Of a DNA stretch of 64,000 nucleotides, positions 17,282 through 54,832 are shown in pieces. Position 1 is the stretch's first letter. Each line of letters opens with the position of its first letter. Where the stretch lies: positions 8,056,501-8,120,500 of the forward strand of contig NC_080560.1 of assembly GCF_030253575.1 (NCBI RefSeq). Reading direction: 5' to 3'. This DNA is from Rhododendron vialii (Eukaryota > Streptophyta > Magnoliopsida > Ericales > Ericaceae). The position numbers were made by a program, and so were the translations under genes. Under the pieces are notes generated by a model. That model did no database searches and was not told where the DNA came from. It worked only from the letters and a program-made list of their open reading frames with translations.

Positions 17282-19371
17282 ATGTTTCGATCAAAACTAG
17301 TGCTATCCTTTTCCCTCTCAATCATCTTCCTCCTCTTAACCACAGTCCAATCCAAGTGTCCCAAGACCTGCGACTTGGCTCTGGGCTCGTACTACGTCTG
17401 GCCCGGAACCAACCTCACTTTCATTTCCACAGCATCAGCCGACTCCATCACCGATATCCTCGGCTACAACACATACATCACCAATGCGGACAGCATCGAA
17501 GCGGGAACCAGAGTCAACCTCCCCTTCACCTGCGACTGCATCGACGACGAGTTCCTGGGCCACGTGTTCCCATACTCGGTTCTGTCCGGGGACACGTACT
17601 ATGAGATCGCGCAGACGTACTACGCGAATCTAACTACGCCCGCGATGCTGGAGCAGTTCAACAGCTACCCGGAGTCCAATGTCCCGGTTAAAGCGGTGTT
17701 GAACGTGACGGTGAATTGTTCGTGCGGGGACGCGGCGGTGTCGAAGGCGTACGGGTTGTTCATCACTTACCCGCTTCGGGTTGGGGATAGCTTGGAGTCG
17801 ATTGCGGCTGCTGCGAACTTGAGTACGGATTTGCTGCAGAGCTACAACACGGGTGTAGATTTTAGCGCGGGGAGTGGTCTGGTTTACATTCCTGGCAAAG
17901 GTGAGCATTTACTTATTGTTTCTTGGATAACTCAAATGTCCCAGCTAGCATCACGCATACGTCAATTCATTAATTCCTAGAACTAATCCTACTGTCCATT
18001 AAAAATTTAGAAGCGACTCGATTAAAGCCATGACAAAGTCCGTGTTCCGTAAAAATTGATGTCACCTAAATGTTTCGAACCTAACACCTACGACAAAGGA
18101 AAGCAAACCTTTTGGTTTCCTCTCCTTGGATCATTTGCCTCTATTGGTAGGGGTACCAATGGAAAAAACAAAAATGATGGATTGGATATGGAAAGGCTCA
18201 GACTGGGATATCGAATTCTAGGTCTGTGTAGTATAGTATTAATGTTAGCTTGCGTTATTAAGGAACAATAATACCTTGCCTGTTGGGATTTCGGCCAAAC
18301 CAAAAAACAGAAAACTTGCAAAGATAATCAAGAAACAAAAACAAGGAAGCAAGACACAGAGGATCTTTTGTGGTTCCTCAAATAGATTATGAAGTACATC
18401 CACGGCTGACACCGATTTTCACTTTGTATCGGACGAAAAAAAAAAGTTACATCGGACATATAGTAGGTATTTATAACTCAGAATTCACATCACCAATTAC
18501 GTAATACCCTCTACCACAAGTGTACAAACCTTTAACACTTAGCAAAGCTCAACCCAAACCGAATCAGGCTTCACAAACCCAACAACAAGATCCATAAGTT
18601 TATAGGCCTTAGAGTGCCACTTGACCGGGGCTTCAATTGTAACACCCCATCCCACATTGGAAGTCTACATAGATGATCTTAGACATATAACAAACCTTGT
18701 GGGCTACTACTAGTACCTTGTGCTTAAGCTTTTGAGCCATGTGGTGTGGCTTGTGGATCAAAATCAAGGTATTGGGCCAGTGGTCTACTTGGGGTGTTAC
18801 AGGTGGTATCAGAGCCATCCATGTGCACGACCATGTGGGCCTTGGAGTTTGGTTTGATTTGGTTGTTGGTTTGATTTGTATTGGTGATTATAGTGCTCAA
18901 TCTCTCGCGAAGGCACGATGCTATAAAGTTTGGGAGATTGTAACACCCTATCCCACATTGGAAGTCTACATGGATGATCTTGGACATATAACAAACTTTG
19001 TAAGCTATTACTAGTACCTTATGCTTAAGCTTTTGGGCCATGTGGTGTGGCTTGTGGATCAAAATCAAGGTATTGAGCTAGTGGTCTGCTTGGGATGTGC
19101 ATTAACTCAGGTGGCATAAACTTCTCCTTAGGAGTTCTTAAAAAATAATTAGACAAAAAAATCTACATACTTGCTAAGGGAGTTTAAATTCCTTTGCTCT
19201 TTCGTTGGTCTTTGCCCCTGCGTAGCAAGCAATCATCCTTGGCGCTTCCTACTCCCAAGCCCGGCTTTGCCTTTAGGCAAGCAAAGCATGGAGTATATTT
19301 TTTTGATAGGGCCGGCCCGGGTAAGCCCCGCAAGTCTTCGGACTTGGGCAACCCTCGGGCTGGGGCAACCA

Positions 19372-19409
<38 letters not shown>

Positions 19410-22400
19410 AAATATAAATTTAAAAAAGTTTCCCATGGTAGCATAAACTGCTTCTTTAATTTGGTGTTGTGTTCATTGGCTAGCTCAATGCTAGATTTTT
19501 AAGTAGTAGAGGAGTCGTGTTCGATTCCCAGTCCACCACCGCCCTTTTCCCTTTATTTTTTCACTTTTATTTTACCTGTTTTTGTTTTCCACCCAATTCA
19601 CAATAATACGAAAATCAAATTTCTTTGTTGAATTTTTTTGATTTAACAAACACAACAGTAATGTACAGGTGATATGTTCTTACATTTGATTAAAAAAAGT
19701 CATAGTTAAAATAATAAATCGAGCGAGTTAACACGGTTTTTATTTTTACTTTCGAACTACCGTTTCGCAAGAGAGATTAAAGAGATTGGTTATGATTTCA
19801 ATTAAAAATGAGGCGCCGTTCCGCAAAGTGCATTTTTAGGCATTTGGGACTTTTTAACTTTTTACGCTTTTTGAGATAGGTCATTCTTCTCACATATATC
19901 AACTAAAAAATCCAAAAAGCTAAAAAACCAAAAGTTAGCGGAATGGACTCGAGTTTTTGGATAAGTAAAGTACGATGACTCAATTGGATTTTGCTTCAAA
20001 AAATGCAAGAAGAAGTTGTTTTCCTTAAATCAGATCGTGCTACTCATAAAACACTATAATTGGGGGTTTACATTTTGATAGTGATTTTTTTTTTTTTATG
20101 TTATTCAAGCTAAAAGAACAATGTAATTTTTTTTTTTTTTTTACTTAGTAGTATGTGTTTTTTTTTTGTATGACTTAAAAGTATGTGGGCAACTGTAGAC
20201 ACCCCATTCTGGACTGTCCAGATAACGTTATTTGTCGATCTTATATTTCCCCAATGATGATTTTAGTCGAAAACAGTTTAAGGACAAAGGTGTGGTCGAG
20301 CTTTGAGCGTCCCGAATCTCTCTCAAACACCTTTCAAAACCCTTCAAACCAGAGCCAAACAGCCCCAGCAAAACCTAATTGGCATACGCCAGTGTCCTGG
20401 AGGCGTACGCCAGTCACCTGCCACGTGTCAGTCATCGACCAGTGGCCCATCTTGTACTGGCGCACGCCAGTTACTAGTGGCGCACGCCAGTCAAACCCAG
20501 TCAAATCAACTTTATCCAGCCACTTGGGCGGGACTTTTGTGCCACCCTGACGTCGGCCACAGTGTCCCTGATGACCGCTTTCGGCCAGGCCCGCTCCCTC
20601 TCTCTCCTACACCCCCCATCAAGGCAAGTCCCATGCATTTAATGCATGGGAGGCTCCAACCTTACCTTAAACAGCCAAACAGGGCCTTAGACCAGACTGA
20701 TCTCAGTCACTCCCCCCTCTATAAATACCCCCCTTGCATTCATTTGCAAGGGGTTGGCCTCATTAAGAAGCACAAAGCTTTCTTCACCTCTCTTCTTGCT
20801 CTTTATTTCTCTTCCTCCATTAAAAGAGAAAGTAGAACAACCCATCTCCATACACCCTGCTGACATACAGCCATCTTCTCAGCCTCCATCTTCAACCCAT
20901 AAGCTCAATATCTCCTCCAAACCTCCATACGAAAAGGTATACCACCTTTACGTTCTTTTCTGTTTTCGATCCCTGAGGGGAGCCAGCAGGGCCCAGGCTA
21001 GTAAACAATACTAGTCCTGGCCTTGAAATGGCAAAAATGTGACAATCGTATCAGATAAAACATGGCGCACGCCAGTATGTCTATGCCGTACGCCAGTAAT
21101 GGAAGTATGGGCACAACTGGCGTGGGGATCATGGATCGTCATTCCTTTTGTTTTATCTTTCTGTCGATCACCTTAGCATGCTAATAACCGGTTTACTGCT
21201 TTCCATATTTAGAACAGTTTAGTGGTAATATCCTATCTTTTTCATCTCTGTCATGTAAAGGCCTCTGGGATCCTTCTGGTCATGTTCCAGAGCCCAGATG
21301 ATGCAAAGCCAAACACTGGAATCAAAGGCAAAGTGGCGTACGGCAGTCATATACTGGCGTACGGCAGTAGGCTTCTGGGTCCAGTGACTGGCCCTTGCAT
21401 CTGAAGCGAAAGCTAGGCCTATCTTTTGTCCCACACTGTTTTGGGGTGTTCTGCTTTCTTTCATGGCCTAAAGCCATTCGTTTTGCCTGTGACTGTGTAT
21501 ATTCTGCTATATTAAACTGCGTGGTTTGCCCTGGGTGTGCGCTGGTCCTTTTCCAGAGCCCAGAGGGTTGCAAACAAAGACTGAGAGATCCAACAAGTGG
21601 AGTACGCCAGTTTATATGTGGCGTGCGCAGGTTGTATCACCATGCAGTGGCTCGACCAGTGCATGCTGGCAGAATCTGCTCACGTCACCTTGTGACAGCG
21701 TACTGCAGTTTGCTCGGGATGCTCAGTGCTTGTTCTCAATCTATACCTAGCATCGCAATCAAATCATTCATAAGCATTTTGTCACATAAACTGCAACTTG
21801 TTACCGTTTTAATCCCCATTAACTGCTCCCCCGCCCTAACTGGCTAAAAAAGATGATCAAATGAGAGAAAAGTGCAAATGTTTTACAAAATGCCCGAGTA
21901 GAGACCGATCTCCGGATTGGGCGAGAGGGGTGCCATAAAACCCTTCCCCTCTCGTAACCTGGCTCCCGAACCTCAGATATCGAAGGTGACGACGGACCAG
22001 TCTACAAGCCTTTTTCAAAAATCAAACAAACGTGGCAAACGTTTTCGAGTTCGGTTCCTTGGGTGCTTTCACCGCTAAAACCCGAGTGGCGACTCTGAAT
22101 CGAAGCGTTTCGCCGCACTTTTTCCAAGCAAAAAGGGCCACGCCCAATTTTACGAATAAAATTTCCGGGGGGCGCGTGCCCACAGTGGCGACTCTGCTGG
22201 GGACCATTGCGTTGATTGATATTTGGCGATTAATACATAATTGAACAATTCTCAAAAGCTTGTCAAAACAGCACGCTTCGCGCTGCTGAAGAACGGAATG
22301 GTAACGTAACAGGATCTCAGCATCCGACCAATCCGAACTGGGGCTTTTACTATTGTTCTCTTGTGTAGTTTTCTCCAAATATCAATTAACAAAAGTGAGC

Positions 22401-25400
22401 CAAAGCTTCAAAAGGCATTTGTTTTCAAAAGCGTTGCATTTCTCTCTCATTGAATCATTCTTTGGCATTCTCCGTTCGTATCGATGGTTGGTCAGCCCCG
22501 TTGAGGTGTTTTGGGTAACCGGCACAGTTTACTGGAGCCCGGGGTCCTCGAACGCCCAACAACCTTGGACGATGATGAGTCGTACTACCGTTCGACCATT
22601 TGCTTTGCTCTACGCGTTGCAATGGGAGGTATATCGCGGCTCTAGTCAGAGGAACCCCTTTAAGCCAAAACCGGCCTCTACAGCGTTTACAAAGCACTAG
22701 AACCTTTCAACATAAGACAGGAACCCGCAGGGTAGGATTACTTGCTTCTAACCCCATATCCTGTCTATGTGTTACCGCTTTCCATATCGCATGCCTGTAC
22801 ATACATTCATGATCGTTTTGCGTAGGAGCATGCTAGGGCGGCTTTTAGGGTGTCTTTTGTCGAGTCTGTCTTGCGCCCACTCGGCATTTGCCTTGGACCG
22901 ATGACGAGTCGTGCATCTCGATGTTGCACGTTACAAAAATTTTCAAAGTCCTTAATCAATGAGACTTCGGGAAATCGACACTTTCTAAGTCTTTGACCAA
23001 TACCCCATCGAGGTTTCGAACCGAAAACTAGGAACAACGGAGAATATGGCATGATGCTTACACCACTCAGGTTAAAAGTGCTAATCACTTACACCAGGCT
23101 CCGGCACAGTGCTGCCTACGCCACTTCGGTTACGGTATCATGACATCTACACCGAGCTGTTCCAAAATCAAACTTTGAAACTTCGAGAAGGGAGAAAGTC
23201 AAAGGCTTAGGCTGTTTTGGCATCCCTTAGTAACATTCGATTCAATCAAGGATACACCGTCGAAAAGAAATCCGAGGATTCCATCGCAACCGTCCGAATG
23301 GTGTAAAGCAGACTCCCCCTAGTTCTAGAGTCTAGGAGGACACCGACGACGTTGGCATGATCATTTTTCAATTCCCGTCTATTCTTTCAAATAAAATGAC
23401 TGCAGGCTGTCACTGAGCTCTTGTACTTTGCCGTCTAGTCATGCTGATGTCAAAGCAGAATTCCGAGATCAAGAGCCAAACCTACTTGGGACCGTCCGTC
23501 GAGTCTGTTTGAGGATCTGATTTGGGGTTCGTTTTTCAGTCAACCGCAACGGAAGTTCTGGCCTGCACTGTGTCACGAGAGGATTCGCCACCGACTACTC
23601 CGCACGAGTCCCCTCCGTCTACTCCATCTCCGCCAGCATCTCCCAAACCTGTTAAAATAGAAGTACTAGCCATGGCGGATGTCCCACCTCCGAATCTTGC
23701 AATCGTCCTAGCCGATCTACAGCGCAACCTGGCCATCATGCAACAGAGAGCCGACCAGGCCGACGCCTCTATGGCCAATCTCCAAACCCTAATCGAGGAG
23801 CGACTTCCCCTGGTAGCAGGAGGGGAAGGCGGTGAAAGGCGTGAACAGGGAGCCGCCGGCCAAGAGGAACCATTGGTTGAGAACCCCGCTCCAAGCCCAG
23901 AAATGGCAGCTTTGGTCGCCAAGATGGCCAAGTTGGAAGAAGCCGTCGCCAAATCTGAAAGAAAAGGGTCGGGAGCGCTAGACATGGACCGCCTCTGCCC
24001 GTTTCCGAATGCTCGGCTGCCCGATCGGTTTAAAATGCCCGACTTTGCAAAATTCGACGGCAGCGGAGACCCGAAAACTCACTTGTTGGCCTATCATGGA
24101 GCCATGAAGCTGCATGGCGTCGAGGAAGATGCCATGGCTCAGCTATTTCCGCAAACTCTGGCCGGTCCCGCCTTCCAATGGTTTCTGTCCCTCGACATCG
24201 CCAAGAGGCGGACCTGGGAGGACATCGGCACGGCCTTCAATGCCCAGTATAGCTACAACGCCCAGCTCAAAATGACCACTCGGGAGTTGGAATCCACCAA
24301 GATGACTGCAAAGGAGTCCTTTGCAGACTTTATCCAAAGATGGAGAGCCAAGGCCGCTCTCATGCCCGACCGCCCAAGCGAGAAGGATCAGATCCGCATC
24401 ATCTCCCGTAATCTGCAGCCCGACTTCGCCAAAAACCTTGTGTTGGTTCAGGGCGCAAACTTTGAAACCTTCTATGACTCCGGGCTGGCCATCGAAGAAG
24501 CCCTTCAAACCGGCGTTCTGCCTAGGAGTGACAATTCCTCCTCCACTTCAGCCTCAAAATCAAAGCCTCGTGCATACACCGGGAACAGCACTGCTTTGTT
24601 CGGTGGCAACAGCTACGCCAACGCGAACTCTGCCAACAACCCCTCTACCCAAAACTCTAACCACATTGCCGACATTAACCAAGTTCAAACCCCTCAAAGA
24701 CCCCGAAACCGCAACCAACCTCGTAACTTCGCCAACTTCGAGGCACCTCTCTCCTCGGTGTTGGAGAAGCTAATCAAAACCGGGCACCTCAGGCCTCTAG
24801 CCCCAACTCCACTTCCTCAAAATCCACCCCCTAGCCATAACCCCAACGCTTTCTGTGCGTACCATCAAATGCCCGGCCATTACACCGATTCCTGCTACCG
24901 CCTCCGTCATGCGATACAGGATTTGGTGGACAATGGCACCCTTCCAACTCCACCCGCAAAGCCCAATGTCATTTCCAACTCCTTACCCAAGCATGACCCT
25001 AACCCTCGAGTGAACCAGATAAACCTTAGCTCCACCATATTCAACCCTACCGACCATATTACCTCAACCTTCAACCAAAGACCAATTGTACCCTTCCCCT
25101 CCGAACCAAGCATTAACATGATGGCGGCCGGTTGGGCCATGGAGGACAGAGCCAAGGAGTGGGAAGAACTTTGCAGTGATTGGACTGAACAGTATAATAT
25201 GGGATTCCCTGCGCACCCTCAGGTCAATCAAATGTGGCTAGATCAGTGGCAGGAAGAATGGAACGCGGCGCAGGTTGACCCTCTGGATGGTCTCTCTCTG
25301 TTCACGCTCTTTTACCAGCCCGAATTAAACCCCGTCGAAGTGGAAGCCGAGGAGTACGTGTGGGATCCACAGCCTGGTGGATGGCAATTGGGTCAAGGCC

Positions 25401-28400
25401 TCGAGGCGGATGTGGACCAAAACGACTTTGATGAGAAGTACTGGGACCAGTTCCAAGAGGGAGAGGTTGTGCCCGAAGTTCGTCGCCCGCTAGGCGCCAT
25501 GTTACCCTTGGTAAATGCTATTGCTGACACGCTCGACCGTCGCATCCATGAGTGTGATATTACCCTCGACGTTGTTTCTGTGGAACGGCCGCGTCCTGTC
25601 ATTACAGCCCCCGGGGATGACTGCTCAATCATGGTTCTAGATGCGCTTCCGGCCGACCTCTGGGATGCGGAAGAAGCTATTAAGACCTCACCGCCCGCTG
25701 ATATTTGGGACGTCGACAACATTGTCGACCTCAACATGGGGAACGAAGTATGGACCGTCAATACTGCTCTCGTCGATGGAGGATTTTGGGACGTTCCATT
25801 CGTCACTAACCCAGGAGCACCATTTGAAGAAGAGGCTGCACAGGATCCCGCCTTTTGGGAGGGTCTAGTGATGGAGGATTTGGAATGGGATACCGCTCTG
25901 GGGACAGATTCGACTGCAGCGGTGGCATCAACGGACAAAGGGAAGCGCAAGCTGGAAGAAGTACCGGCCGATCTGTGGGATTCTATTGACTCATCATCTT
26001 GGTGGGACGTGGCCAATGTCACTAGGAGCGGCCGAGTGTTTCAGCCCTCCAACCTCCAGGCGGGAAGCTCGTCCAATCCGCCCGGTCAGAAAGCCACTGT
26101 TCCCGCTGCTCAGCGAACTGATCCGCTCTTTCCGAATGGGGCTCCAGAAGAAGACGCCATTTTGAAACAGCTCGAACGGATTCCTGCCGCCGTCTCTATC
26201 TGGGGTCTGATATCGTCATCAAAGGAGCATCGTGAGAAGCTGTCTTCCGCATTGGCCCGGCTCACTGTACCGATCGACATTACCCCCGAGGCCATGATTG
26301 CTCTCGTGCTACCACTTCTCTCTAAACACTCCGTCACTTTCACTGAGAGGGATCTGCCCGTTGAAGGAACTGCTCACAACCGCCCGCTGCACATCACCAT
26401 CAAGTGCCGGGGACATTGGGTGCCAACCGTGCTAATTGACAACGGCTCAGCTATCAACGTTTGCCCGATGAGGGTTGCCTACCGTTTGGGATTCTCAAAG
26501 AGCGACCTAACGCCCTCCAATCTGGCCGTCAAGGCATATGACAGCACTCGCCGCATGGTGGAAGGAACTCTGATGCTGAAACTGGATGCTGAGGGTTTCG
26601 AAATGGATGTAGAGTTCCACGTGGTTGACGTCCCCGCCACCTTTAACCTGCTGCTGGGCAGACCTTGGCTTCATAGGGCCGACATTATGGCTGTACCTTC
26701 AACCCTACACCAGAAAGTCATGCTGGGGCTGCCTACCGGAACCTTAACAATCTGCGCGGACTCTGGGATCCGCCCGCTCACGGATGACGGCACGCCTGTC
26801 TTGGGCATTATGCACGGGGAAGAAGACTCGGACTTCGGGGGTTTCTCTTTCGACACATCTGGCTCAGTCCTCGCCATTGCCATGGATGATGACTTCACCA
26901 TAAGCTCAACTGTCCTCGAAATGATGAGGAAGATGTCATTCATGCCGGGCCTAGGACTCGGGGCCAACCAACAAGGGATCGCCGAGTTCCCTGTCTTTCC
27001 TTCCAACAACGGCCGCTTTGGTCTTGGTTACACTCCACCGGCCAAAGGCGCCGAAAAGAGGAAAGACACGGGAAAACCTCGAACCCTTTTTGGTAACCCC
27101 GACAGCTACTTTGTGCGAGAGGGAGGAGGTTCTGCTTATTCGGGACAGATAGAGCCGTTTTGGGATCCAGAGGCTTCCACTTGGCTGCCGGGATTTGAAA
27201 TATTTGCTGCGGACACCTGGTCCGATGAAGAGACGGCCGAAGAAAAACTGGCCAAAAAGGAGTTCGAGAAGCAGCTGGGTCAGACCAAGGGAGAGTTTGA
27301 CTGGCTGAAGGCTTTTGATCAAGGGGATCTGGAGATGCTGTTCTCCCAAGTAGGTTTGGTTGGCAAGGGCGAAGAAGCTGAAGTGCTGATGCTCGGGCCC
27401 GACTCCCCAGATACTCTCGAGGATCCTACCTCTCTCATTGTGAAGGCACAGGGAAGTCTCAATAATTGCATTTTCACTCCGCGTCTAACATGCATTGACG
27501 ATGAGTCTGAGTCTGACACAGAGTCTGTCAAGTCTAAGTCTAGCTCAGAGTCGGAGCTTGTGCCTCTTGGCCCTCCACGTCGTAGCTTTTACTTCGAGTT
27601 CGAGTCTGTTGTACTTGGCAACCCCGTGGGGTTTTATGAAATGCATGATCCTACTTCTGACTACTTTGCTAGCTTCTATATAAACTGTGTCGACCCTGAC
27701 GATGAAGGAACAGACTTCGACGGGGATATCCCGGCTGAGTTGCGTTCCCTCATCGAAAAGGAAGACGAAAGGCGTGCTCAGCCTCTAAAAGAAGAAGTAA
27801 TTTTTGTAAATTTGAAAGACGAGGATGACCCCCGCATGATGCAAATCGGTGCAAATCTATCCCTGAAAAATCATGCCGGAACTATCGAGCTTCTCAAGGA
27901 ATTTCCCGAGGTTTTCGCGTGGTCTCATAAGGATATGCCCGGCATCGATCCCGAGATAGTGCAGCATCGCATCCCGTTAGAGCCTGGGGCTGTCCCCGTC
28001 AAACAGAAGCTCCGCAGAATGAGGCCGGATTGGGTTCAGAAGATCAAGGAAGAGGTTACTAAACAGATTGATGCAGGGTTCATAAGGGTTGCAGAATACC
28101 CCAAATGGGTGGCCAACATTGTGCCCGTTCCTAAGAAGGATGGAAAGATCCGAGTCTGCGTCGACTTTCGGGACTTAAACAAGGCAAGCCCCAAAGACAG
28201 TTTTCCCTTGCCACACATTGACGTGCTTGTGGACAACACGGCGGGGCATGCCTTGCTCTCTTTTGTCGACGGATTCTCCGGATACAACCAGATCTCTGTG
28301 GCACCCGAGGACCAAGAGAAAACGACATTTGTCACGGAATGGGGGACTTACTGCTATGTAAAGATGCCGTTTGGGCTGAAGAACGCCGGGTGCACTTTCC

Positions 28401-31400
28401 AACGGGCTCAAACGACCTTGTTTCACGATTTTATCCATAAGACCGTCGAGATCTACGTCGATGACATGATTGTGAAGGCAAAGGAGGAAAAAGACTATCT
28501 CCCGACACTCAGGCAATTTCTCGAAAGGCTCCGCAAATACAATGTGCGCCTGAACCCGCAAAAGTGCACGTTTGGGGTCACGTCAGGCAAAATGTTGGGG
28601 TTTCTGATCACCGCAAGGGGAATCGAAGTGGATCCTTCCAAAATCAAAGCAATCCTTGAGATGGAACCACCCAAGTCTGAAAAGGGTGTGCGAAGTTTTC
28701 TAGGGAAAGTCCAGTTCATCAGCCGTTTTATCTCCAAGCTAACTCTAACCTGCGGGCCGTTGTTCCATTTGCTCAAAAAGGGGGTCCCATTCGAATGGAC
28801 GGAGAAATGCCAGACCGCTTTCGAGTCTATTCAGAGGTATTTGCAGAACCCACCGGTGCTGATGCCGCCAACGCCGGGTCGGCCTTTGATTCTCTATCTG
28901 TCCGTTTCTTCAACAGCCATGGGGTGTCTGCTAGCACAGGAAGGAAGCAATGGGGTCGAGAAGGCTGTGTACTACCTGAGCAAGAAGATGGTCGGATCTG
29001 AGGAGCGTTATACCCCTCTGGAAAAGACGTGTTGGGCGCTAGTTTGGGCTACAAGAAAGCTTAGACACTACATGCTAGCCTATTCGGTGAGACTGATTTC
29101 TCGGATGGATCCTATCAAGTATCTGTTCGAGAAGCCGGCGCTCACCCATAAGCTAGCACGTTGGTTGCTTCTGTTGGCTGAGTTCGAACTCCAACATGTC
29201 ACGAGGAAGTCTGTAAAGGGGCGCGCTGTGGCCGAATTTTTAGCTGATCACCCTATCGACGGCCCGGAAGACGTGGATTTCACATTCCCCGACGAAGAGG
29301 TTCTAACAGTGGTCGAAGAAGTATGGACGCTCTATTTTGATGGGGCTGCTAACCAAAGGGGATTCGGGATCGGAGTATTGTTGATCACGCCCGCCGGTGC
29401 ACACATTCCTCTCGCCTTCAAACTGAATTTCGATGTCACCAACAATCAAGCCGAGTATGAGGCCTGCATCGTCGGAATGGAAGCTGCTATCGCTTTAGGG
29501 GTCGAGAAGTTGGAAGTAATTGGCGATTCGAACTTGGTGGTTTCCCAAGCCAATGGAGATTGGAAGGTTCGTGAGGAAAAGCTGAAGCCTTATCACCAAG
29601 ATTTGGAAGAACTGATTCCTCGCTTCAATAAGGTGACTTTCACCCATGTCCCACGCTTGAGGAATCAGTTCGCCGATGCCTTGGCGACTTTGGCTTCAAT
29701 GATCGAACTTCCAATAGGAGTTAAGCTGCGGCCAATTGTGATTGAACAGAGGGACTTGCCCGTTTACGAGTATATCAACGCCATTGATGATGTCGATGAT
29801 GGCCTACCCTGGTACCATGACATTTGGAACTTTGTGGAGCGCGGGGAGTTCCCTATTGAGGCCACGAAGAAGGACCGGATTGCCTTACAGAGGCTGGCTT
29901 CTCAGTACATCATCTGTGGGGGGAAGCTGTATCGAAGGTCGCACTGCGGGATGCACAAGCTCTGCGTCAACGGCGTCGAGGCAACAAGGATAATGGAGGC
30001 GGTTCACGAAGGAGTCTGCGGGCCTCACATGAGCGGCATCATGCTCGCTAGGAAAATCCTCAGGCAGGGTTATTACTGGTCTACAATGGAGACGCAGTGC
30101 ATCGACTATGTCCGGCGCTGCTACAAGTGTCAAATCCACGCAAACTTGCAGCATGTCCCTCCGTCTAAGCTGTATGGCATGACTTCGCCGTGGCCGTTCT
30201 CTGTTTGGGGCATCGATGTTATCGGGATGATTAGACCGTCTGCTTCAAACGGCCATAAGTTTATACTAGTAGCGATAGACTATTTCACCAAATGGGTCGA
30301 GGCCGAATCCTACAAGACGCTGACAACGGGTCAAGTTGCTCAGTTCATTCGAAAGAACATCATTTACCGGTACGGAGTTCCTCAGGCATTTGTATCCGAT
30401 AACGGGAGCCATTTCAAGGGGAGGGTTCTGGAGCTCTTCGAGGAATTTGGTGTCGAGATCCATCATTCAACGACCTATCGCCCGCAAACAAATGGGGCTG
30501 TCGAAGCTGCAAACAAGAATGTCGAGATGATCATCAAGAAGACGACCGAGTCTGCAAGGGATTGGCACGAGCAGCTGCCTCTCGCCCTCTGGGGGTACCG
30601 GACATCTATTCGCACTTCAACGGGTGCAACTCCTTTCTCTTTAGTCTATGGGATGGAGGCGGTACTTCCCATCGAGCTCGAGGTACCATCGCTGAGAATC
30701 ATGGTCGAAAGCGGTCTTGAGGAAACTGACTGGTTAAGCGGAAGGTTTATCGAGTTGATGTTGTTTGATGAGAGAAGACTCCGGGCCTTGTATCATGTTC
30801 AGGGGTATCAGCGTCGAATTGCCCGTGCATTCAACAAAAAGGTGAAGTCCAGGGGCTTGGTCGAAGGAGACATGGTCACGAAGGAGATCCGGGCTCCAGT
30901 GTTTGATCCTCGTGGGAAATTCAGGCCGAAGCGATCCGGGCCATACATCATCAAGGCCATCCTATCCGGGGGTGCTGCTAAGCTCATCGACCTCGACGGC
31001 AATGAATTCAACACCCTGGTCAACCTGGATCAGCTCAAGCGTTATTTTCCCTGAGAGATGCTCGTTGGGTCGAAAAACCACAAGGGTGGGCGATTCCAAG
31101 CAAAAGTTAGAGCAGCCTGCTAGACCGAAAACCTAAGGAGGCGGTTCTAGGCAAAAATAAATAGGCAAAAGTCGAAAGCTCGCTAGACCGAAAACCTGCA
31201 AAGGTGGTACTAGGCAAAAGTTAGAGCGTAAAAGGAGAGGTAAAATACACGAGCGAACCTTTGCCTGAACTACGTTCTGACCTGATTCCCTGAAAAGGGA
31301 TACGTAGGCAATCTCACCTTGAGATTCGGTCACATTCTATCAAAATTTCGATCCAGGTTCGACACTTTTGGGTCAATAGCGCAGTTCGAGGGGGTCGAGC

Positions 31401-34400
31401 ACAAGTCAAAGGCAGCACCGAAGCGAGTCAGAAAGGGGGAAACCTGTTGTCTTTCAACTTTATTGCAAATTACTATTTCTAATATATAAACTGAGCACAA
31501 AAGCCTTAAAAAAAAAAACAGTTGAAGCATGAAAAACAGAACAAAATGCTTATGAAGCCTAACGGCTCGCAGTTTATTCTAAGCATAGCAGAGTGGCCCG
31601 GAGTCAGTCAATGTTTTCTCTTTCATTCACATCTGCTCTCAGCCACTGTCTGTAGCGCCTCCTCAGCCCTGTTGAAAAATCTGGCATCTCAGCCTGAAGG
31701 GCTCTAAGGCCCCAGCGCCGTTGGTAACCGCCGAGTGTTTGAGCGTTGAAATTCGGGACACGGAAATCCCCAATGCTGGTGCGGTGGTTCTCTTGAGAGG
31801 CGCCCAACTGTCGAAGAACACGGCCGGGAATGTAGAAAGTGAAACTCGATAGCCCAGCAATCACCATCCGGTCGAATCCGTCGGAGGAAATAGCCATATC
31901 CGGAAGGTCCAGCCAGGGGCACCTCCAAGCAGTCTCATCAGGCTGCATTTGCTGCATGAACTCATACCAGCCTTCTATGTCCATGTCCGGATACCGCATC
32001 TCCCTTTGATGGATCCTCTTCGGAAAGAGATTCCAGCCCGCTACCGGAGGATGCAAGAGATTCAACTTGTCTGACAGCCACAACTGAATGAGAGGAAAAG
32101 ACAAGTAAGAGGCTAGATAAAACCTGAGCGAAAAGACAAGTAAGGAGCTAGGAAGCAACCTAAGCCGAGCGTTGAGGTAAAATGAGAACGTGTGAAAAGC
32201 CGGAAAAAGGTGAGCTGAGTGAGATTACCTGAAGCAAAAGCGGGCTGCCGCTGAAAACGGCAGACTGGCCCGTATACACCAAATCCAAACCCAAAAGAGT
32301 TTCGGCCAGGACCAGAGGGACCACGTTCCTTCGCGCCCCCATCTGTGCAGCAACGCTCACCAGTGAAGGGCTGACCCGCCCGTCGGCCGGCACAAGCAAG
32401 TAGGCGGCCAGCAAGCAGATCACCAAGGCAAAGCGGCGTCGCGCCTGAGCATCATCACTAGCCAAATCGCCGTCCGGGCTGTACATTTCGATCAACCGCA
32501 TGATTTTCAATTGGCCGCCCTCCAGGATGGTATTTGCCAAGCCCCGGGAAATATTGAGTGAACTGGCCAGCAATTTGGGCATGCTCGCCTGGTAGGGTGG
32601 AACTACAAGCGTAGGGGACGAGAAGGTCCGAAGGTACGCCTGGAATTCTTCGACAGTCGGGCACATCTCGTCGTCGCCAAAGCGAAAGACATGGACGTCC
32701 GGATCCCAGAATCTGAGAGCTGCCTGCAGGATCGCTGGGCGGAGTGGCACATGTCGAAGAAAGCGGAACGAGGCGAGACCGTGGTATTGAAAGTTGAGCC
32801 AGTCAACGCTTAGAAATTGCGCCAACCAGGGCCTAAGTAAAGTCGGGAGGGGGTTGTCCATGGCAAATATTGAAGTATATTGGAGGAAAGGGGAAGCAGT
32901 GCGCCTTGGGAAACCTTTGCAGGGCCTCTGCTTTATAGGCCTTTGCCCTTTGAATTTCTTTCCACTAATGGGGCATCCAAAGCCTCATGCTACACTCCAA
33001 ATCATGTTCCTGCAAAGGACACTGCCCCCCTGAGACACCCAGAAACCGTGTGCAAACCGTGTAGGGGTGAAGACAAAGTGGCCCCCCCCCCAAAAAAAAA
33101 AGGACAGTTGGTCAGTCAAGTGGATCTGGCACTCAGGACCCTAGCGTACGCCAGTTATTTACTGGCGTGTCCGTGTCCCCATATTACTGGCGTACTGCCC
33201 TCAACTTCTGGCGTACGCCAGTCGGCTTCACCAGAAACCAGTCTTGAGCAGCTACTGCCTCCGTGTGGTCGTTTTCAATTCCGGGGCTGGCTTTGGCTAT
33301 TTGTTGGGTCCTACAAGTCACGAATGACATTTAAGACTATGGCCAAGCATCGGATTCCAAAAGCCACGCCCGATGAAGATTTTGGACCCTCGGTGGCCCG
33401 TGTCGAGACAAAATCAAGGATACGGATGGTCAAAACTCGTTTCCAGGGCTCTTGCCAAGTTTTGTCATACCATACAAGTTGCGTAGGACTTATGTGACTG
33501 TGTGGGGGTGTCGGTTTCAGTCCGGGACTATATCGAGTCATCTTTGGCGTCTTATGCCCGTTTTTATGGCATTTTTAGCATTTTTTTTGGTATTTCCCCT
33601 TGCACCGGGACTTTTCTATTCGGTTTTGATGGCTCGTACAGGTCATCGTGCATCTATGTCACCTTTCAAAAGGGTCAGTTCCCTTCCCCGGGGAGAATCT
33701 TAGAGTTTGGCCTACCGGCGCCGAAAACTCCCGTATCCCCCGCGTGTCTGGGATACGTATGGTATCCTAGGACGTTTCTGTCCATCTTTTCTTCGAGCTA
33801 AGTCAATTATGTGCGTAGTCAAGTGTCTGTGGTCGACTCAAAGTATTCATCAATGCATGTTAGATATTAGCGGATGTTTTGTTCTTTTCCTTTACCAAGT
33901 CTCACCAAAGTAATGGGAAAGCAGTAAAACAGAAAATGCATCTATTATATACTACTGTGTCAAAGCTACTGGTGGAAATGTACCGAGTATCAAACGACAC
34001 AACGGCCCGGGCAGAGCTAAATGTATCAGGGCACACTCGCCCGCAAAATCAAGAGGCACGCAGGCCCCGTCCAAAACATCGAGTATCAAAGTATCTATCC
34101 AAAAGTGGCAAGTACCGGCAAAATAGACTGAGGCTCGGTGATAGCCCTCAGTCATCAAAAAGGTCTTCCTCGTCGTCCTCATCCTCGCTGTCCTCCACCT
34201 CCCTAGGGTCTATCCGGAACCTCGGATCGCTCGCTGAGTCAGAGCCGCTGCTGAGGGACGTCCCCTCTTCCTCTTCTTCCTCTGCCTCTTCTTCTTCTCT
34301 CCTTTTCTTCTGCGAGGGTCCCTCGGCAGGCTTCTTCTCTGCAGGCCTCTTCCTCAGCTCCCAGCGGAACTGGAGCTCCTCGCTGGCCGGAGTGATTTGC

Positions 34401-37400
34401 ACTCCCTGTTCCACCCTTGCCGCTGGCTGGGAGGAGCTCGAAGCTGCCTTCTTTGCTGGGGGAGGCCGCACGCTCTTTCTCCTAGGAGCCGCCCTAGCGT
34501 GTCCCTGCATAGTCATTCAATTCAGTTAACATACATTGTGCATATTGTATATATTGAAATGCTGAATGCAGGAAATGTCAAAAGCAATCCCGATCAAAAG
34601 TAAAAGGAACAGTTATACCTGAGGCTGCTCAACGGGAGCTGGAACTGGTGGTGGGTACTCCAATTGCAAAGAGGCGCCGCCGGCTATCCTGTGGAACTCC
34701 TTCTCCATGGCCTTCATCAGGCGAGCTGCCTCCCGTACCCATTCTATCGGGGCCTGTGACATATTTCGGGACAGAATCAGAATGCAAGCCAAGTGTACAC
34801 ACTGAAAACAAATACGGGAACTACAAAAGGGTAAAGGAATGTCTTACCGGCCCTGTGATCTCTGCTGGGTCTGTCCTGGCGGGCTCGAACCGAACTATAG
34901 CCTCCTCTTCTGCTGTGTCCCGCACAGCTAGGGTCCAAGAAAGCCGAGGCAGCCCAGTCGCTGTGGCATAGTCGCTCCTCTCTCTCGGGCGGGATGCCCT
35001 GCTCTCCCGGCTCCGCCTCTCCTCACCAGCCTCAAGCGCCTCACTCTGCACGGCGACATGCTCCAGCACGCCGAGCGGCCTCGCCAGGTGCTGCCTCCGG
35101 TATACGGCGTAGTCACGCTCAGGCCTCAGAAAAGCAGCCAGCCCGGTCGGAACAGTGAAGCGCCTCAGCTCAGCCAGGGTATACTTGTCCGTGTGGGAAG
35201 CGTGAGGAGGAAGTGGCCCCGGCACCTGAAAGTCAAGAGCGCCTAGTGACTGCCGTGTCACCCGGTCACCCAGGTACCACCGCCACCCGAAGGCCGACTC
35301 CAAAAGCACCCGGCTCGCAGTCACCACCCTGCTCTCCGCCAAGTACGCAGGCTCAGGCTCAGCGCCGCTCCAAGGGTTCCAATCCACCTGCAAGGCAATG
35401 GCACAGTTTGTAAGGTATCAGCGACAGCATTAAAGCAATTCTACAGGCATAATGATCAAATTCGACATAATTGCATACCTGAGTGCCAGACAGCTCGTCG
35501 AGGTAGGTCCGGAAAGCTAGGAGGCTCCCTCTGGACTTCTTTTTCCCGCTGTACATAGGACCCCAAATCATGGCACGGGGGAGCATCCTCAGGTTCGGGC
35601 ACTTGTTCTCCGGGGGGTACATCTTCAGCACCTCATAAGCCCATAGCTGCAAATGGTAAAGACAACCAAGGCGTCAGTTCATATGCAAATCAAAGTACAA
35701 ATGCAATAAAGGGAAAAGCGGTAAGTAAATGGTAGTCTTTGTTTCTTACCTCCCACACCCTCCAGTAGCCGGCAGTCGCCTTCTTCCCGCGAGAGAACGC
35801 CCCCATAAAGCCATAGCAGGTGCCCAGGGCAGCTCCTCCCCAGTCAAACCTCGAAGCTGCGCCTAAGTCATGGAGGGCCGGTAAGTAGGACAGGTGCACT
35901 ATGGATCGCTTGTTCGGGTACAGGGTAGCCCCGAACAAGTACAACAGGTAGGCCCTCGCCATCTGCTCCGCCTCCAACTCTGACTCCGGCTCCCTCCCGT
36001 GCAAATACCGTTTGAACTGGTCATAATGGACGGTCTCCGCCTCACCCGCCGGCGCCTGCCCTAGAAACCACGTCAGAGCCGCCGGATCCCTGTAAATCTC
36101 TGAGTCAAACGGGATAGGCTCTCCACCTACCCTCAAGCCTGTGAGCGCTGCGAAGTCGGACGGGGTCACTGTCATTTCCCCAATCGGTAAGTGGAAGGTA
36201 TTTGAGGATTCCCACCACCTCTCGGCCAGCGCTGTCAGCAGAGCGTGATCGCTTTTCACGGCCGTCAACGTGAGGATAAACGGCCGGAACCCTGCAGCGT
36301 CAACCAAGGCCCTGACACGCTCGGGCAAGCTCCTGTACAGCTCAAGCGAACTCGCCGGACCTCCGTGGCCCCGGGTGCTGGCCGCCCCCCTCTGCACAAC
36401 AAAGACAGACAGACAGCAGAAAGAACTTCATCAATAAATTACACTCCAAACAGTTAGTCGAATTCAGAATATCAAAGAGTAACTCTACAAGTCGAAAACA
36501 GGTATCATAAAGGTCGAACAAAAGCTACTAGGCACTTGTATTCTCCTATCCAGTTCTGCTATCAGTCGAATCAATTCAAAGGTATCTTTCAGTCGAGTTT
36601 CGGGCTCCAAAGGCTTTATTTCTCTTAAGGCACACCTCTCGGTCGATTTTACAAGTATTCAGTTTATCAATATGGTCGATTCAAGCTATTGGGCACGCCA
36701 TCCGAGCGTCCGTCATGTCATTCAACTTAGTCGAGTTCAAGTTCAAAGGATAGTCTTATTGATCAAAGTCGCTTATGGCCGATTCTAGTTTGGCGCTAAC
36801 CATTCCCTCAAAGTTATGAAACATCCTGCAAGTCGATTCAACTACTTCGATTGTTCTACCATTCAAGTCGAGTTTCTGCGTCAAGGCATATTATTCAAGG
36901 TTCCATTTTCTCAGTCGGGTTACAATCGAGGTTCCAATCTACATGCATTACGAGCTACGCTACGACAGTTCAAAACTACCTTTGGATTCAAACGATAAGA
37001 CATGCATATCAAAGGAAAAAGTTCAAAGGAATACCTGTGCCCAGTCCACTGACAAGTGCCTCTGCGGGTCCCTCAGTATCAGCTCAGCGTCATAACTCCC
37101 CCTCAAAGGCGCGAGGCTCTCGACCCCGGACGGTATAAACAGGTGTGGCTCGGGCGGAGCGTATGTAGCCGCGTCAAACTGACGGCGGGGTGCCAGCCGG
37201 GCGGACTCTGCGAGCGTCACTGCCCGCTCAAGGGACCACACCTCCCCCTGAGCCTCCTCAGCTATCTCAGTCTCGCTCACAAAGGCTTCCTCATCGGCCC
37301 TGGCCCTCTCGGCCTCCTCCCTCAAGCGCTCATCCTCCTGCGCTCTCTCCACTTGCCGGGCCCTATCCTCTCGTGCTGCCAGCACTGCAGCCACTACCCC

Positions 37401-40400
37401 CGGGTTCTCACGGAGCAACCGGCCGAGTTCTTCCTCGGACGCAAACTCGGCGAAGTCACCCCGTGTGATGGGTACGTGCGCCGAGGACCCTGCTGCAGGC
37501 CTGAACTCCACCTCTCCCACGGGTAGCTCTCCGGATGCTCCCTCTTCAACCGCCGGGCCCTTGCCCCTTGCCGGATCTCTCAACGGCGTCTCCGGCCGAT
37601 CACCATCATCACCACTGCCGCTACCGTTGCCGCCGGCTCCAGCCGAGCCCAGACCCGTGATCACTAAGCCCTCTACCCCGCTGCTTGGATCCAATCGCCG
37701 GACCTGTGGACCCACTATCACAACAGAACCTGGCGTACGCCTCATCCCTCCTGGCGTACGCCCCTCCTCGCCACCAACCACCTCTTCTGCATGGCCACCA
37801 CCGCCGTCTTCGCCGCCTGTACCGTCTGCACCAATGCTCGACGAAGCCCCTACCGTCGTTTGATCGTCGATTCGTGGCCTTGGGGCCTCGATTTCACCCC
37901 TTGTTTGGGTTCTTCCTTCTCCGGCACTGCCATTGCCGCCACCTTCACCGGATTCTGCCATAGATGAGGTGGGCTGAATGAATAATGGATGAGATGAGAG
38001 ATTGAGTGAGGGTATGATGGGTTTTGAGAGAGTTTTGAGAGTTCGGAGTTCAAAACGGAACGAATGGCGGTTTTCTGCACTGGTTCGGCATCTCATACGA
38101 CGTATGGGACGGTTGGGCCGGGTCTGGACTCGGATCTGGGCTCGGATCTCTGAGCTTTATGGCGTACGCCAGTTGTTTGTACCATACGCCAGTACTTTGT
38201 GGGCCTCAGGCCCAATCCATGTCCAATGCTGAGATTCGTCCTAAAAGGAAGGCCCAGCTTCATATCGGCTCACGTGGACCCATCCCCAAGCAGAGACTCG
38301 TCCAATTTCAAATCAACGACGATCCTCTCGTCCAATTTCAAATCAACGACGATCTATCCGTCCAATTTCAAATCAACGACGATCCTCTCGTCCAATTTCA
38401 AATCAACGACGATCTATTCGTCCAATTTCAAATCAACGACGATCTATCCGTCCAATTTCAAATCAACGACGATCCTCTCGTCCAATTTCAAATCAACGAC
38501 GATCCTCTCGTCCAATTTCAAATCAACGACGATCTATCCGTCCAATTTCAAATCAACGACGATCTATCCGTCCAATTTCAAATCAACGACGATCTATCCG
38601 TCCAATTTCAAATCAACGACGATCTATCCGTCCAATTTCAAATCAACGACGATCTATCCGTCCAATTTCAAATCAACGACGATCCTCTCGTCCAATTTCA
38701 AATCAACGACGATCTATTCGTCCAATTTCAAATCAACGACGATCTATCCGTCCAATTTCAAATCAACGACGATCTATCCGTCCAATTTCAAATCAACGAC
38801 GATCTATCCGTCCAACTTCAAATCAACGACGATCCTCTCGTCCAATTTCAAATCAACGACGATCTATCCGTCCAATTTCAAATCAACGACGATCTATCCG
38901 TCCAATTTCAAATCAACGACAATCTATCCGTCCAATTTCAAATCAACGACGATCCCCTCGTCCAATTTCAAATCAACGACGATCCATCCGTCCCACAATC
39001 TGCTTTCCCCAACGGAATCAATGCTTCTGCAAAAAGGTCATTCCCCAGAGGAGTCCACATTTCTATGATCTGTCGGTCTATCCGCCCCAGCGACAAGTCA
39101 AACAGGTTCTTCAAATTTCTTGCGTTCCGGATAGCCTTGAAGAGGGTGTCTAGAAAACCTTTGACGTTACTTGTCTTCAGTCAATGGTGCGTCAAGTGCC
39201 GTCAAAGGGGGGCTTCTGTAGACACCCCATTCTGGACTGTCCAGATAACGTTATTTGTCGATCTTATATTTCCCCAATGATGATTTTAGTCGAAAACAGT
39301 TTAAGGACAAAGGTGTGGTCGAGCTTTGAGCGTCCCGAATCTCTCTCAAACACCTTTCAAAACCCTTCAAACCAGAGCCAAACAGCCCCAGCAAAACCTA
39401 ATTGGCATACGCCAGTGTCCTGGAGGCGTACGCCAGTCACCTGCCACGTGTCAGTCATCGACCAGTGGCCCATCTTGTACTGGCGCACGCCAGTTACTAG
39501 TGGCGCACGCCAGTCAAACCCAGTCAAATCAACTTTATCCAGCCACTTGGGCGGGACTTTTGTGCCACCCTGACGTCGGCCACAGTGTCCCTGATGACCG
39601 CTTTCGGCCAGGCCCGCTCCCCCTCTCTCCTACACCCCCCATCAAGGCAAGTCCCATGCATTTAATGCATGGGAGGCTCCAACCTTACCTTAAACAGCCA
39701 AACAGGGCCTTAGACCAGACTGATCTCAGTCACTCCCCCCTCTATAAATACCCCCCTTGCATTCATTTGCAAGGGGTTGGCCTCATTAAGAAGCACAAAG
39801 CTTTCTTCACCTCTCTTCTTGCTCTTTATTTCTCTTCCTCCATTAAAAGAGAAAGTAGAACAACCCATCTCCATACACCCTGCTGACATACAGCCATCTT
39901 CTCAGCCTCCATCTTCAACCCATAAGCTCAATATCTCCTCCAAACCTCCATACGAAAAGGTATACCACCTTTACGTTCTTTTCTGTTTTCGATCCCTGAG
40001 GGGAGCCAGCAGGGCCCAGGCTAGTAAACAATACTAGTCCTGGCCTTGAAATGGCAAAAATGTGACAATCGTATCAGATAAAACATGGCGCACGCCAGTA
40101 TGTCTATGCCGTACGCCAGTAATGGAAGTATGGGCACAACTGGCGTGGGGATCATGGATCGTCATTCCTTTTGTTTTATCTTTCTGTCGATCACCTTAGC
40201 ATGCTAATAACCGGTTTACTGCTTTTCATATTTAGAACAGTTTAGTGGTAATATCCTATCTTTTTCATCTCTGTCATGTAAAGGCCTCTGGGATCCTTCT
40301 GGTCATGTTCCAGAGCCCAGATGATGCAAAGCCAAACACTGGAATCAAAGGCAAAGTGGCGTACGGCAGTCATATACTGGCGTACGGCAGTAGGCTTCTG

Positions 40401-43400
40401 GGTCCAGTGACTGGCCCTTGCATCTGAAGCGAAAGCTAGGCCTATCTTTTGTCCCACACTGTTTTGGGGTGTTCTGCTTTCTTTCATGGCCTAAAGCCAT
40501 TCGTTTTGCCTGTGACTGTGTATATTCTGCTATATTAAACTGCGTGGTTTGCCCTGGGTGTGCGCTGGTCCTTTTCCAGAGCCCAGAGGGTTGCAAACAA
40601 AGACTGAGAGATCCAACAAGTGGAGTACGCCAGTTTATATGTGGCGTGCGCAGGTTGTATCACCATGCAGTGGCTCGACCAGTGCATGCTGGCAGAATCT
40701 GCTCACGTCACCTTGTGACAGCGTACTGCAGTTTGCTCGGGATGCTCAGTGCTTGTTCTCAATCTATACCTAGCATCGCAATCAAATCATTCATAAGCAT
40801 TTTGTCACATAAACTGCAACTTGTTACCGTTTTAATCCCCATTAACTGCTCCCCCGCCCTAACTGGCTAAAAAAGATGATCAAATGAGAGAAAAGTGCAA
40901 ATGTTTTACAAAATGCCCGAGTAGAGACCGATCTCCGGATTGGACGAGAGGGGTGCCATAAAACCCTTCCCCTCTCGTAACCTGGCTCCCGAACCTCAGA
41001 TATCGAAGGTGACGACGGACCAGTCTACAAGCCTTTTTCAAAAATCAAACAAACGTGGCAAACGTTTTCGAGTTCGGTTCCTTGGGTGCTTTCACCGCTA
41101 AAACCCGAGTGGCGACTCTGAATCGAAGCGTTTCGCCGCGCTTTTTCCAAGCAAAAAGGGCCGCGCCCAATTTTACGAATAAAATTTCCGGGGGGCGCGT
41201 GCCCACAGCAACATAATATAAGGTTGAGCTAGGGCAACCCAAATGTTGGGACCGGTACTGTTTTTTGATCACCTTTAGAACTTGGTTCAAAAGCTTAACA
41301 AGCTTCAAAAAATATCTTAGCTTGGTTCATTTATGCAACCAATTAACCAATCTTGAATGAGCTTTTATTGAACGAATGTGATCTCAAACTCCAGTAGTTT
41401 AGTTCATTTAACGATTGTGGAATACAACGCCGCCATGTTATCTTATTGTAAGAAAAAAAATATTTTATTCTTACCTCAGCCTTCGAAATTAGTACTACCA
41501 ACTGCTCGGTGCACTGAATAATCACTTTGCCTTGGCTCTAACAATAATTCTAAGTATCCAAAAAAATATACTCCAAAATTATCCCAAAAAGATAAATCAA
41601 CAGTACAAAATGACTTTGAAATGAATCTGTATTGTTGATTTACTAATTTCATATTTGGACCGAAGTAGTGTTTTCGGTATTGAAAAATTTATAGATTTTT
41701 ATTTGTGGTTGAGAAGTTATTAGGTGTTTTAGATGGTGAATAAGTAATTGATGAATTTGCGAGTAGAGTTACAGTAGCAAAAAAAAGTTTCTGTTTACAA
41801 TTTTTTTGTTAGTGGAAACGAAATGATTAAATTCTGAAATTTTTTTGTTAGTGGAAATGAAATGGTAAAATGTTTTAAATTTTTTTATGATTTTTTATTT
41901 TATTTTTGGTGAAAACACCCCTTAGTCAAGTCAAAGAAAATTCCGATTAAAAATACTCCGTAAAAAATAAGAAGTCAAAAAGAACGACCAACTCTTTCAC
42001 ACACTGAGACTCCAATGGCGACAATTTTCATTTGTTCCTACAGTAAACACACACTATCACGTCCCTTCACTGTCCAAAAACTCAACAATGTTCCGCAACA
42101 AAACAAGCAGCCATTAATGCCTTGTTTTTTTTTTTGATCAGCGCTATTAATGCATTGTTCACTTCACTCTTCTACTTGAAAAATATTTCTCAACTCAATT
42201 ATTATTCTCAGATCTCTTTTTAACTTTTTAATCATTACTCTCATTTCTCATTCTATCTCTCTCTACTTATACCAGTTGGTGCAGCATAGTAAACCAGAGT
42301 TGATATGATATCATATGTAGACCCTTGTGTGATTCAATCATCTATTTACTTCACCTCACAACAATGCATCACCACCATATCTTCGATTTTGTATGAAGCT
42401 TCAAGTGTCCATTTATCTAAGTATAGATATCTTAATCTTTTGCAGATAAAAGTGGAAATTATCCACCCCTGAAATCCAGGTAATTTTTTTGCAACTTTGA
42501 TGTTCTTATAAACTGGAACCATGTTTTTTGTTGCATTACTTACACTTTCAATAAATTATTAACATCTGACAGCCGCTTATTGTTTTCCCTTTTGCAGCAC
42601 AGGTTTTCCCGTCAACTTTGCTACCGGTTCAATGTTGACTTGCTTAATTACTCTGACATTACACCATATATGGATGATTACTTGGAGCTTTTCTGCTACT
42701 TTAAGTACTTGTTTTGCCTTTCATTTAAGCAGGATTGTCAGGTGGAGTCATAGCTGGAATATCTTTAGGAGTAGTGATGGGAGCACTACTAGTGTTTGTT
42801 TGCATATATTGTGGGTTCTGCAGAAAGAAGAAAATGCTGGACAAGTTATTGAGTTCAAAAAGATATGAAGATCGACATCTTCAAGCTGGTAGGGGTATTT
42901 CTCCCCTATTTCTTTTCTGTGTTCCTTTTATTCCAGTATACTAAACATTTTATGTTTGGAAAGGGTGCTTCATGAATATATCTGGTTAGAAATTCTCCTT
43001 TCACTTGTTTTACGCTTTGGCTGAAGATTGAATCCAATCTGACTAACTGGGAAACTTTATGTACTGAATGGTCACAATGTGCTCTAGAATTCGTAACACC
43101 CATGGTTACAAGTACATTTACATTTACCCCTGGCACATTCGGTGTTCAATACAAGGGAAAACAAAAGGTTACTTTTCAAATCTGTCAAAAAATTGTGATG
43201 ATTTGATTTGGTGCAAACCCTGATTTTTTAAGGAGTACCCTTAAGTTTCATAAACATTGCAAGTCACTATTGTTGCTTGTGCCCTTTGTTTTCAAAGTGT
43301 GCTACATTTTACTCTGTATTTGTAGGGCCATGAAAATATTTGGTTGATAGGAAATTCTTACGGCATTTTCCTGAACTAAAGTTATCTTATCCAATGTTCT

Positions 43401-54261: not shown

Positions 54262-54832
54262 GTACGATTTTATTTTGTTTTGCTTTCCATAATTCAGTGT
54301 TGGGACTAGTATGTGCGCCTTGACTAATAATTTCTAGGGACGGATCAAAGCCCGGGCCAATAAGAGTCGACAGTAGTAAGGAGTTTTAGAAACCGAGACC
54401 TAGGAGTGAACCCAAGTGTTATGTCTTGATCACTAATCCAATCCATTGGGGTCAGAGAGTTATAGTTGTTGTTTGTGCAATTGTTCAATGTTATGGATCT
54501 GTGTCACATAATTCGCGTGTGATTGAGAATGAGAGCGCAAGAACGAGCTTTAAAGTGTATGCGACTAAGATATGGTTGAGAACATGTTTGTTGATCATTT
54601 GCTTGCATTGGTAGAAGGATGGAGTATTGAACGGACACTTTTCTATAGATTTTAGAGCATTTGGATCAAGGGTTTATTAGGGATTATGTGTTACCTGGAC
54701 AACAGATCCCACAAATTGGGATATCCAATCCTAGATCTGTGTGTAGTATGCAATCTTATTAGCACCTTAATAGGAGGAACATGTGTACCATTTTATGGTC
54801 TCTCTCTGACAAAATCAGTAAATCGAAATAGA

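Follow-up and report, generated by a model that had tools for sequence, protein, structure and literature searches.

The stretch of DNA analyzed in this study, referred to as the window, comprises 64,000 nucleotides of the Rhododendron vialii contig NC_080560.1 (positions 8,056,501 to 8,120,500). Positions 20194-41207 of the window are occupied by a retrotransposon in which a short near-palindromic motif recurs in pairs. The element is bounded by long terminal repeats (LTRs) of 1991 bp, the 5' LTR at 20194..22184 and the 3' LTR at 39217..41207 (both plus strand), which differ from each other at 5 positions, and it carries the target site duplication (TSD) GCAAC. A TATA box, TATAAAT, is found in the LTR at 20720..20726 (plus strand). 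The open gag-pol frame at 23513..31054 (plus strand) encodes, in this order, gag, reverse transcriptase (RT), RNase H, a second RNase H (RVT_3; PF13456 at 1943-2060, between RNase H and integrase) and integrase (INT). The RT-RNase H-INT domain order is of the Gypsy type, and the LTRs, TSD, RT and integrase identify the element as a Ty3/gypsy LTR retrotransposon and not as a Mutator-like element (MULE) DNA transposon. Two antisense genes lie between pol and the 3' LTR. Gene A, of the DUF7745/plant mobile domain (PMD) type, occupies 31604..32861 (minus strand), with exons at about 32861-32226 and 32092-31604. Gene B is a multi-exon PMD gene at 34150..37961 (minus strand) with its PMD exon within 35690-36427; its start codon was taken at 37961, and a further in-frame ATG is present at 38096.

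The original prediction, made from the letters of the window, described a dispersed palindrome of up to 16 bp. When up to three mismatches were allowed, ACTGGCGTACGCCAGT matched the 64 kb 22 times, compared with 0.04 matches expected, and the core TGGCGTACGCCA at up to two mismatches gave 24 matches, 23 of them inside the element. For comparison, 59 palindromes with permuted halves gave 4 matches at most. The predicted repetition was thus borne out, while the exact 16-mer was not found in the window, where the sites fit TGGCGTACGCCAGT and the information falls abruptly at both edges. Copies were located within 0-2 bp of the positions predicted. With the 3' LTR repeat set aside there are 18 distinct sites, which form nine pairs (P1 to P9) with a period of 20 or 21 bp; pairs about 20 bp apart had been described as frequent, and in fact every site is paired, although some partners are degenerate. 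Two sites match TGGCGTACGCCAGT exactly, ten have one mismatch, one has two and three have three, and the degenerate partners are the left site of P7 (four mismatches) and the right site of P6 (five). A right-hand GT is present in 15/18 sites and the mirror-image left AC in 4/18. Judged by these ends, 12 of the 18 sites point one way (GT at the right, AC missing at the left), one points the opposite way (P7 left) and five are undirected, three having both ends and two (P8) having neither; a uniform orientation of the sites was dropped on this recount. The ideal site may be the full 16-bp palindrome, because exact symmetric 16-mers are present in relatives of the element.

The predicted absence of sites from gag-pol held for the core up to 3 mismatches, a result with a probability of about 0.01-0.02 by chance. 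Peptides encoded by the motif showed no excess in 177 proteins, in which one stray VRHTP (in P0027) is not interpretable. In viral_contigs, a phage and viral collection, CTGGCGTACGCCAG was found in 65 stretches, at one place in each, and double-site patterns were found in none; genome_contigs held one double-site pattern (Sporosarcina, L066). None of the nine papers found to contain the 10-12 base strings of the motif appears to deal with plant transposons.

The sites had also been predicted to precede three promoters. This was the case for five pairs (P1, P2, P6, P7 and P9), which lie upstream of a TATA box or of an accessory gene, but three of the five LTR pairs are downstream of the TATA box and the sites at 37731 and 37752 are in a coding exon. 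All pairs are given on the plus strand. P1 (20380..20414, period 21) and P2 (20458..20491, period 20) are 306-340 and 229-262 bp upstream of the LTR TATA box, respectively. P3 (21063..21097), P4 (21334..21368) and P5 (21598..21632), each with a period of 21, are downstream of it, and P4 has an upstream flank in common with P5. As predicted, the same set recurs 19,023 bp later, P1 to P5 being repeated in the 3' LTR at 39403..40655. Upstream of gene A are P6 (33142..33176), whose right site is retained in relatives despite its five mismatches, and P7 (33188..33222), in which the right site is an exact 14-mer. Both are 205-285 bp upstream of a TATAAA at 32932..32937 (minus strand), which in turn precedes the start codon of gene A by 71-76 bp; this TATAAA was read from the sequence and escapes the pattern TATA[AT]A[AT] used in our script. 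P9 (38160..38193, period 20), with an exact 14-mer as its left site, precedes the start codon of gene B by about 200 bp, and no TATA box was found there by the same pattern. The remaining pair, P8 (37731..37765, period 21), is inside coding exon 1 of gene B and has no orientation. Thus, 8 of the 9 pairs are non-coding. Two other short elements were seen beside the pairs. A G-box-like GCCACGTGTCAGTCATC lies between P1 and P2 (window 20420-20436), and its CACGTG is unchanged in 7 of the 11 diverged LTRs of the alignment. A palindrome-like TGGGCCTCAGGCCCA lies next to P9 (window 38200-38214) and is identical in 3 of 4 aligned relatives, with one change in the fourth.

The motif and its layout are present in other copies of the family. 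A genome search with the whole LTR, in which 40 of 2849 candidates were scored so that the counts are lower bounds, gave at least 42 matches, with at least 40 LTR copies at 87-100% identity and at least 25 elements including that of the window. One LTR from each of 20 of the 24 other elements was aligned with that of the window over the first 1480 bp. Variation among these copies was 1.6% in site columns and 6.5% in the others; when the ten-site template was shifted circularly, 4 of 1480 shifts reached the observed value, and likewise without CpG columns. The right site of P2 is invariant in the 21 LTR copies. The spacer letters of P2 and P4 change between copies, yet spacer length is retained in 19/21 (P2) and 21/21 (P4), and a 20-bp unit was gained in L091 and lost in L109 (2 of the 20 copies). 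The variants had been predicted to change mostly at CpG positions. This was not the case, since 6 of 30 substitutions are at CpG (at 4 of 14 positions), 3 of them being CpG-type transitions, and CpG columns vary by 0.9% inside the sites and 8.1% elsewhere; CpG decay as the origin of the variants was not supported by these figures.

More distant relatives were also compared. The exact 16-mer occurs 15 times in the genome, compared with 0 for the reversed control, and each of its 13 places falls within, or at the margin of, a stretch that matches the LTR (66-74% identity within the matching stretch) or the gene A flank (70-88%). In the gene A flank of five relatives, identity was 0.81 for P6 left, 0.89 for P6 right, 0.43 for P7 left and 0.99 for P7 right, of which P7 right (four relatives) and P6 left (one relative) are biased by how the loci were found, and it was 0.45-0.54 in the spacers and 0.59 and 0.78 in the flanks. 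In the LTR upstream parts of six ascertained copies, the sites scored 0.756 versus 0.565 (rank 5 of 238 shifts). For P8 and P9 (four relatives each, not ascertained), the sites scored 0.875 versus 0.658 and 0.893 versus 0.680, respectively, and P8 thus persists inside a coding exon despite variable neighbours. Among five stretches beyond the diverged full elements, three have 4 of the 5 LTR pairs when a gap of 21 bp is required and up to 3 mismatches are allowed, one has single sites and one (L088) has no LTR match. Among the scored matches, 8 LTR pairs are 8.9-10.7 kb apart, compared with 7 at 18.6-19 kb. Examples of such short elements are C12:33979473-33990819, C5:39845326-39856639 and C8:2301121-2312857. 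All three short elements whose interior was read have no RT-integrase, gene A or gene B match there and no internal sites at up to 2 mismatches, while their LTRs (L095, L107 and L110) retain P2 and P4. Such retention would follow from a reader supplied in trans by full copies, or from a host factor.

A relative of each antisense protein was modelled, P0103 for gene A and P0007 for gene B, and both are predicted to have a VANC21-like fold, the solved VANC21-DNA complex being the first structural match by Foldseek in each case. In a profile comparison, the gene A and gene B families were matched with an hhalign probability of just 25.7. Against DUF1985, 12 of the 20 PMD members reached E<=0.01, with 7.4e-5 as the best value, and the exon of the window scored E 0.0019 with 18.6 bits, below the 35.1 cut-off. 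Most of the named protein relatives belong to Rhododendron molle or R. vialii. Four element-like proteins (P0005, P0006, P0009 and P0143) are annotated in Rhododendron as MAINTENANCE OF MERISTEMS-like or MAIN-LIKE and are possibly transposon genes annotated as host genes; in P0143, a part that matches gene B is joined to one that matches gene A.

Intron 1 of gene B holds a second motif array (36428..37034, plus strand), with 10 copies of GTCGA in 607 bp and 0 on the opposite strand, or 16 per kb compared with 2-3 per kb in gag-pol. The LTR has 4 copies on one strand and 2 on the other. The same intron in three relatives (L072 8100-8690, L077 1175-1730 and L084 8230-8745) has 10, 8 and 8 copies, one of them in L077 being on the opposite strand.

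Taken from the sequence comparisons, the motif array is very probably under selection and bound by protein. Each motif would be the binding site of a sequence-specific protein, and the pair spacing of about two helical turns suggests adjacent binding of two molecules or dimers. The original prediction of one such factor acting on three transcription units is well supported by the constrained sites, the fixed spacing and the same layout in diverged relatives. The most likely reader would be one of the element's own antisense proteins of predicted VANC21-like fold, encoded by gene A or gene B. By binding to the LTR and to the sites that precede the two antisense genes, this protein would switch on the three transcription units or free them from silencing, with feedback on genes A and B, and it would also serve family copies that lost the antisense genes. 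That an element-encoded VANC-fold antisense protein reads the palindrome pairs and activates or un-silences its own family is our leading but tentative reading, which we judge to have slightly less than an even chance. The element may thus carry its own switch against host silencing. The predicted analogy with VANC proteins was strengthened by the structural matches.

Several observations weigh against this reading. The Foldseek E-values were just 0.22-0.23 (probability 0.87 and 0.92), the overall confidence of the gene B model is low (pLDDT 60.7), the models cover relatives and not the window's own proteins, and sequence-profile searches against PDB do not detect VANC21. The known VANC motifs are 8-9 bp and differ from the motif here, and those of VANC21 have one orientation, whereas here 12 of 18 sites share one and the exact 16-mers of relatives are symmetric. 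Among the LTR copies, the variability of P1 right and P2 left, the latter influenced by the L109 deletion, is close to that of their flanks (0.058 versus 0.061 and 0.056). At 66-84% identity, conservation of the LTR sites is modest, the upstream parts of the 5 copies free of ascertainment giving a weak 0.807 versus 0.753 (rank 21 of 238 shifts); within these copies the P2 sites scored 0.84 and 0.90 and P1 0.74. Also, the GTCGA array of the intron is equally consistent with the pattern of VANC targets, and the antisense proteins might read that instead.

A host transcription factor might instead read the pairs as an enhancer, the element having amplified the sites, as suggested for palindromic motifs in Sirevirus LTRs. 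The layout resembles that of Sireviruses, in which the TATA box is preceded by palindromic boxes and an accessory gene by additional ones (PMC2829016). The gene-less short copies retain sites, and the conservation of CACGTG between P1 and P2 (7/11) makes it likely that a host-read element sits beside them. However, a host factor accounts less well for an exact 16-mer found in the element's relatives alone (13/13 places), for three of five LTR pairs past the TATA box and for an internal pair that is coding. We regard this explanation as a serious but rather doubtful one. SPL was the one host factor compared with the motif. The core of the SBP/SPL box is GTAC, and SPL had been put forward as an alternative reader. 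It is unlikely to be the sole one, because GTAC is intact in just 11 of the 18 sites and the sites without it (P1 left, P2 right, P3 left and others) vary by 0-1% among LTR copies. A related and unlikely explanation, which overlaps with the host factor, is that the VANC-fold proteins have the GTCGA array of the intron as their target, and that some other factor uses the palindrome pairs. The same-strand array and its retention in relatives fit this, as do the target repeats of VANC21, which are also found in VANC21 introns (PMC5735166). On the other side, the array is not in the LTR, where the promoter to be freed lies, and two proteins could read two motifs.

Two further explanations do without a binding protein, and both are highly improbable. 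Palindromic Sirevirus LTRs are reportedly sources of small RNAs, and two palindromes 21 nt apart, able to pair together, could fold into DNA or RNA hairpins that feed or evade small RNA silencing. Compensatory pairing inside the pairs was not supported, since left and right sites of one pair are no more complementary (9.2 of 12) than those of different pairs (9.4 of 12) and a substitution common to both sites in P2 and in P4 disrupts pairing rather than restoring it. Neutral local duplication of a 20-46 bp unit, without function, would explain the duplicated upstream stretch of about 54 aligned columns shared by P4 and P5, the two identical sites within each of P2 and P4 and the 20-bp unit gained in one copy. 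It is disfavoured in that the other flank matches between pairs are the motif itself or the same P4-P5 stretch, the sites are four times less variable than the rest of the LTR, the spacers mutate but keep their length, and P8 is maintained in a coding exon with variable neighbours.

Other features of the window include a 30-bp tandem repeat of about 23 copies (38299-38990) between gene B and the 3' LTR. Similar reading frames on both sides of the element (17201-17980 and 53598-54323) resemble what we take to be extracellular LysM receptor parts, and 55602-56186 (minus strand) is presumably a Copia-like RT fragment. An LTR reading frame searched as protein had no homolog, and no relatives were confirmed in viral_contigs by PMD or pol protein.

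The second RNase H between RNase H and integrase is shared with the Tat/Retand Gypsy lineage, dual RNase H having been reported for the Tat family. Retand elements likewise have antisense genes between pol and the 3' LTR, with tandem repeats nearby, and their antisense reading frames, suggested to be regulatory, mostly encode TRP28 (Vicient 2025, PMC11963269), whereas no TRP28 domain (PF04195, E<=1) was found in the 5 antisense pieces scanned here. In maize Grande, the antisense gene is equipped with a separate promoter, and its product is nuclear (PMC7264820). In Sirevirus LTRs, palindromic boxes precede the TATA box and also the envelope gene (Bousios 2010, PMC2829016), but Sireviruses are Copia elements and nearly all of their boxes have a CGG-CCG core, while the core here is GGCGTACGCC in a Gypsy element; the paired layout and a VANC-type protein are not part of the Sirevirus description compared. 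The host PMD proteins MAIN and MAIL1 are also tied to a promoter motif, DOWN, which in the MORC1 promoter is CATGCAGTTT, direct binding being unproven (PMC7156037; PMC9899485).

PMDs are ubiquitous in angiosperms, with some clades encoded by Gypsy elements only and a function still to be determined, and anti-silencing has been speculated for PMDs captured by MULEs (PMC5418596); a 2021 review speculates on counter-silencing by PMD proteins made by transposable elements (PMC8616336). The PMD proteins here are carried by a Gypsy element, as are the PMD-A1/A2 clades, for which a target motif and a structure are not in the description compared (Ikeda 2017, PMC5418596). Our literature search, in which most texts were not opened, found no paper that connects the PMD proteins of Gypsy elements with the VANC structure or with a target motif, and Gypsy proteins of VANC fold together with a constrained target array are apparently unreported in the literature searched. 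It is possible, though uncertain, that Gypsy elements own a VANC-type system, made up of one or two VANC-fold PMD proteins from antisense genes, each having an array of its own (palindrome pairs at promoters, GTCGA in the gene B intron) and freeing its own family only, while gene-less short copies ride along. If true, the Gypsy-encoded PMD would gain a role as a sequence-specific anti-silencer, and anti-silencing of this kind would be common to retrotransposons and not peculiar to one transposon group. The VANC21 fold match and the constrained, family-specific array would make a speculation from the literature testable on specific proteins and a specific DNA site.

Among the closest known systems are VANC21 and VANC6 of the Arabidopsis VANDAL elements. 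VANC21 binds YAGTATTAY motifs, present as single-orientation arrays in noncoding parts of VANDAL21, and induces methylation loss there, and the tandemly repeated units of VANC targets are subject to gain and loss (PMC5735166; PMC10398659). Both systems have element-encoded proteins with a VANC21-like fold (predicted here) and short motifs repeated mostly in noncoding DNA, with units gained and lost by tandem duplication. They differ in that VANDAL is a MULE, whereas here a Ty3/gypsy element has two such proteins, both antisense, and a near-palindrome of 14-16 bp in pairs of 20-21 bp. Thus, the element may work like VANC but, with its LTRs, TSD, RT and integrase, is no VANDAL.

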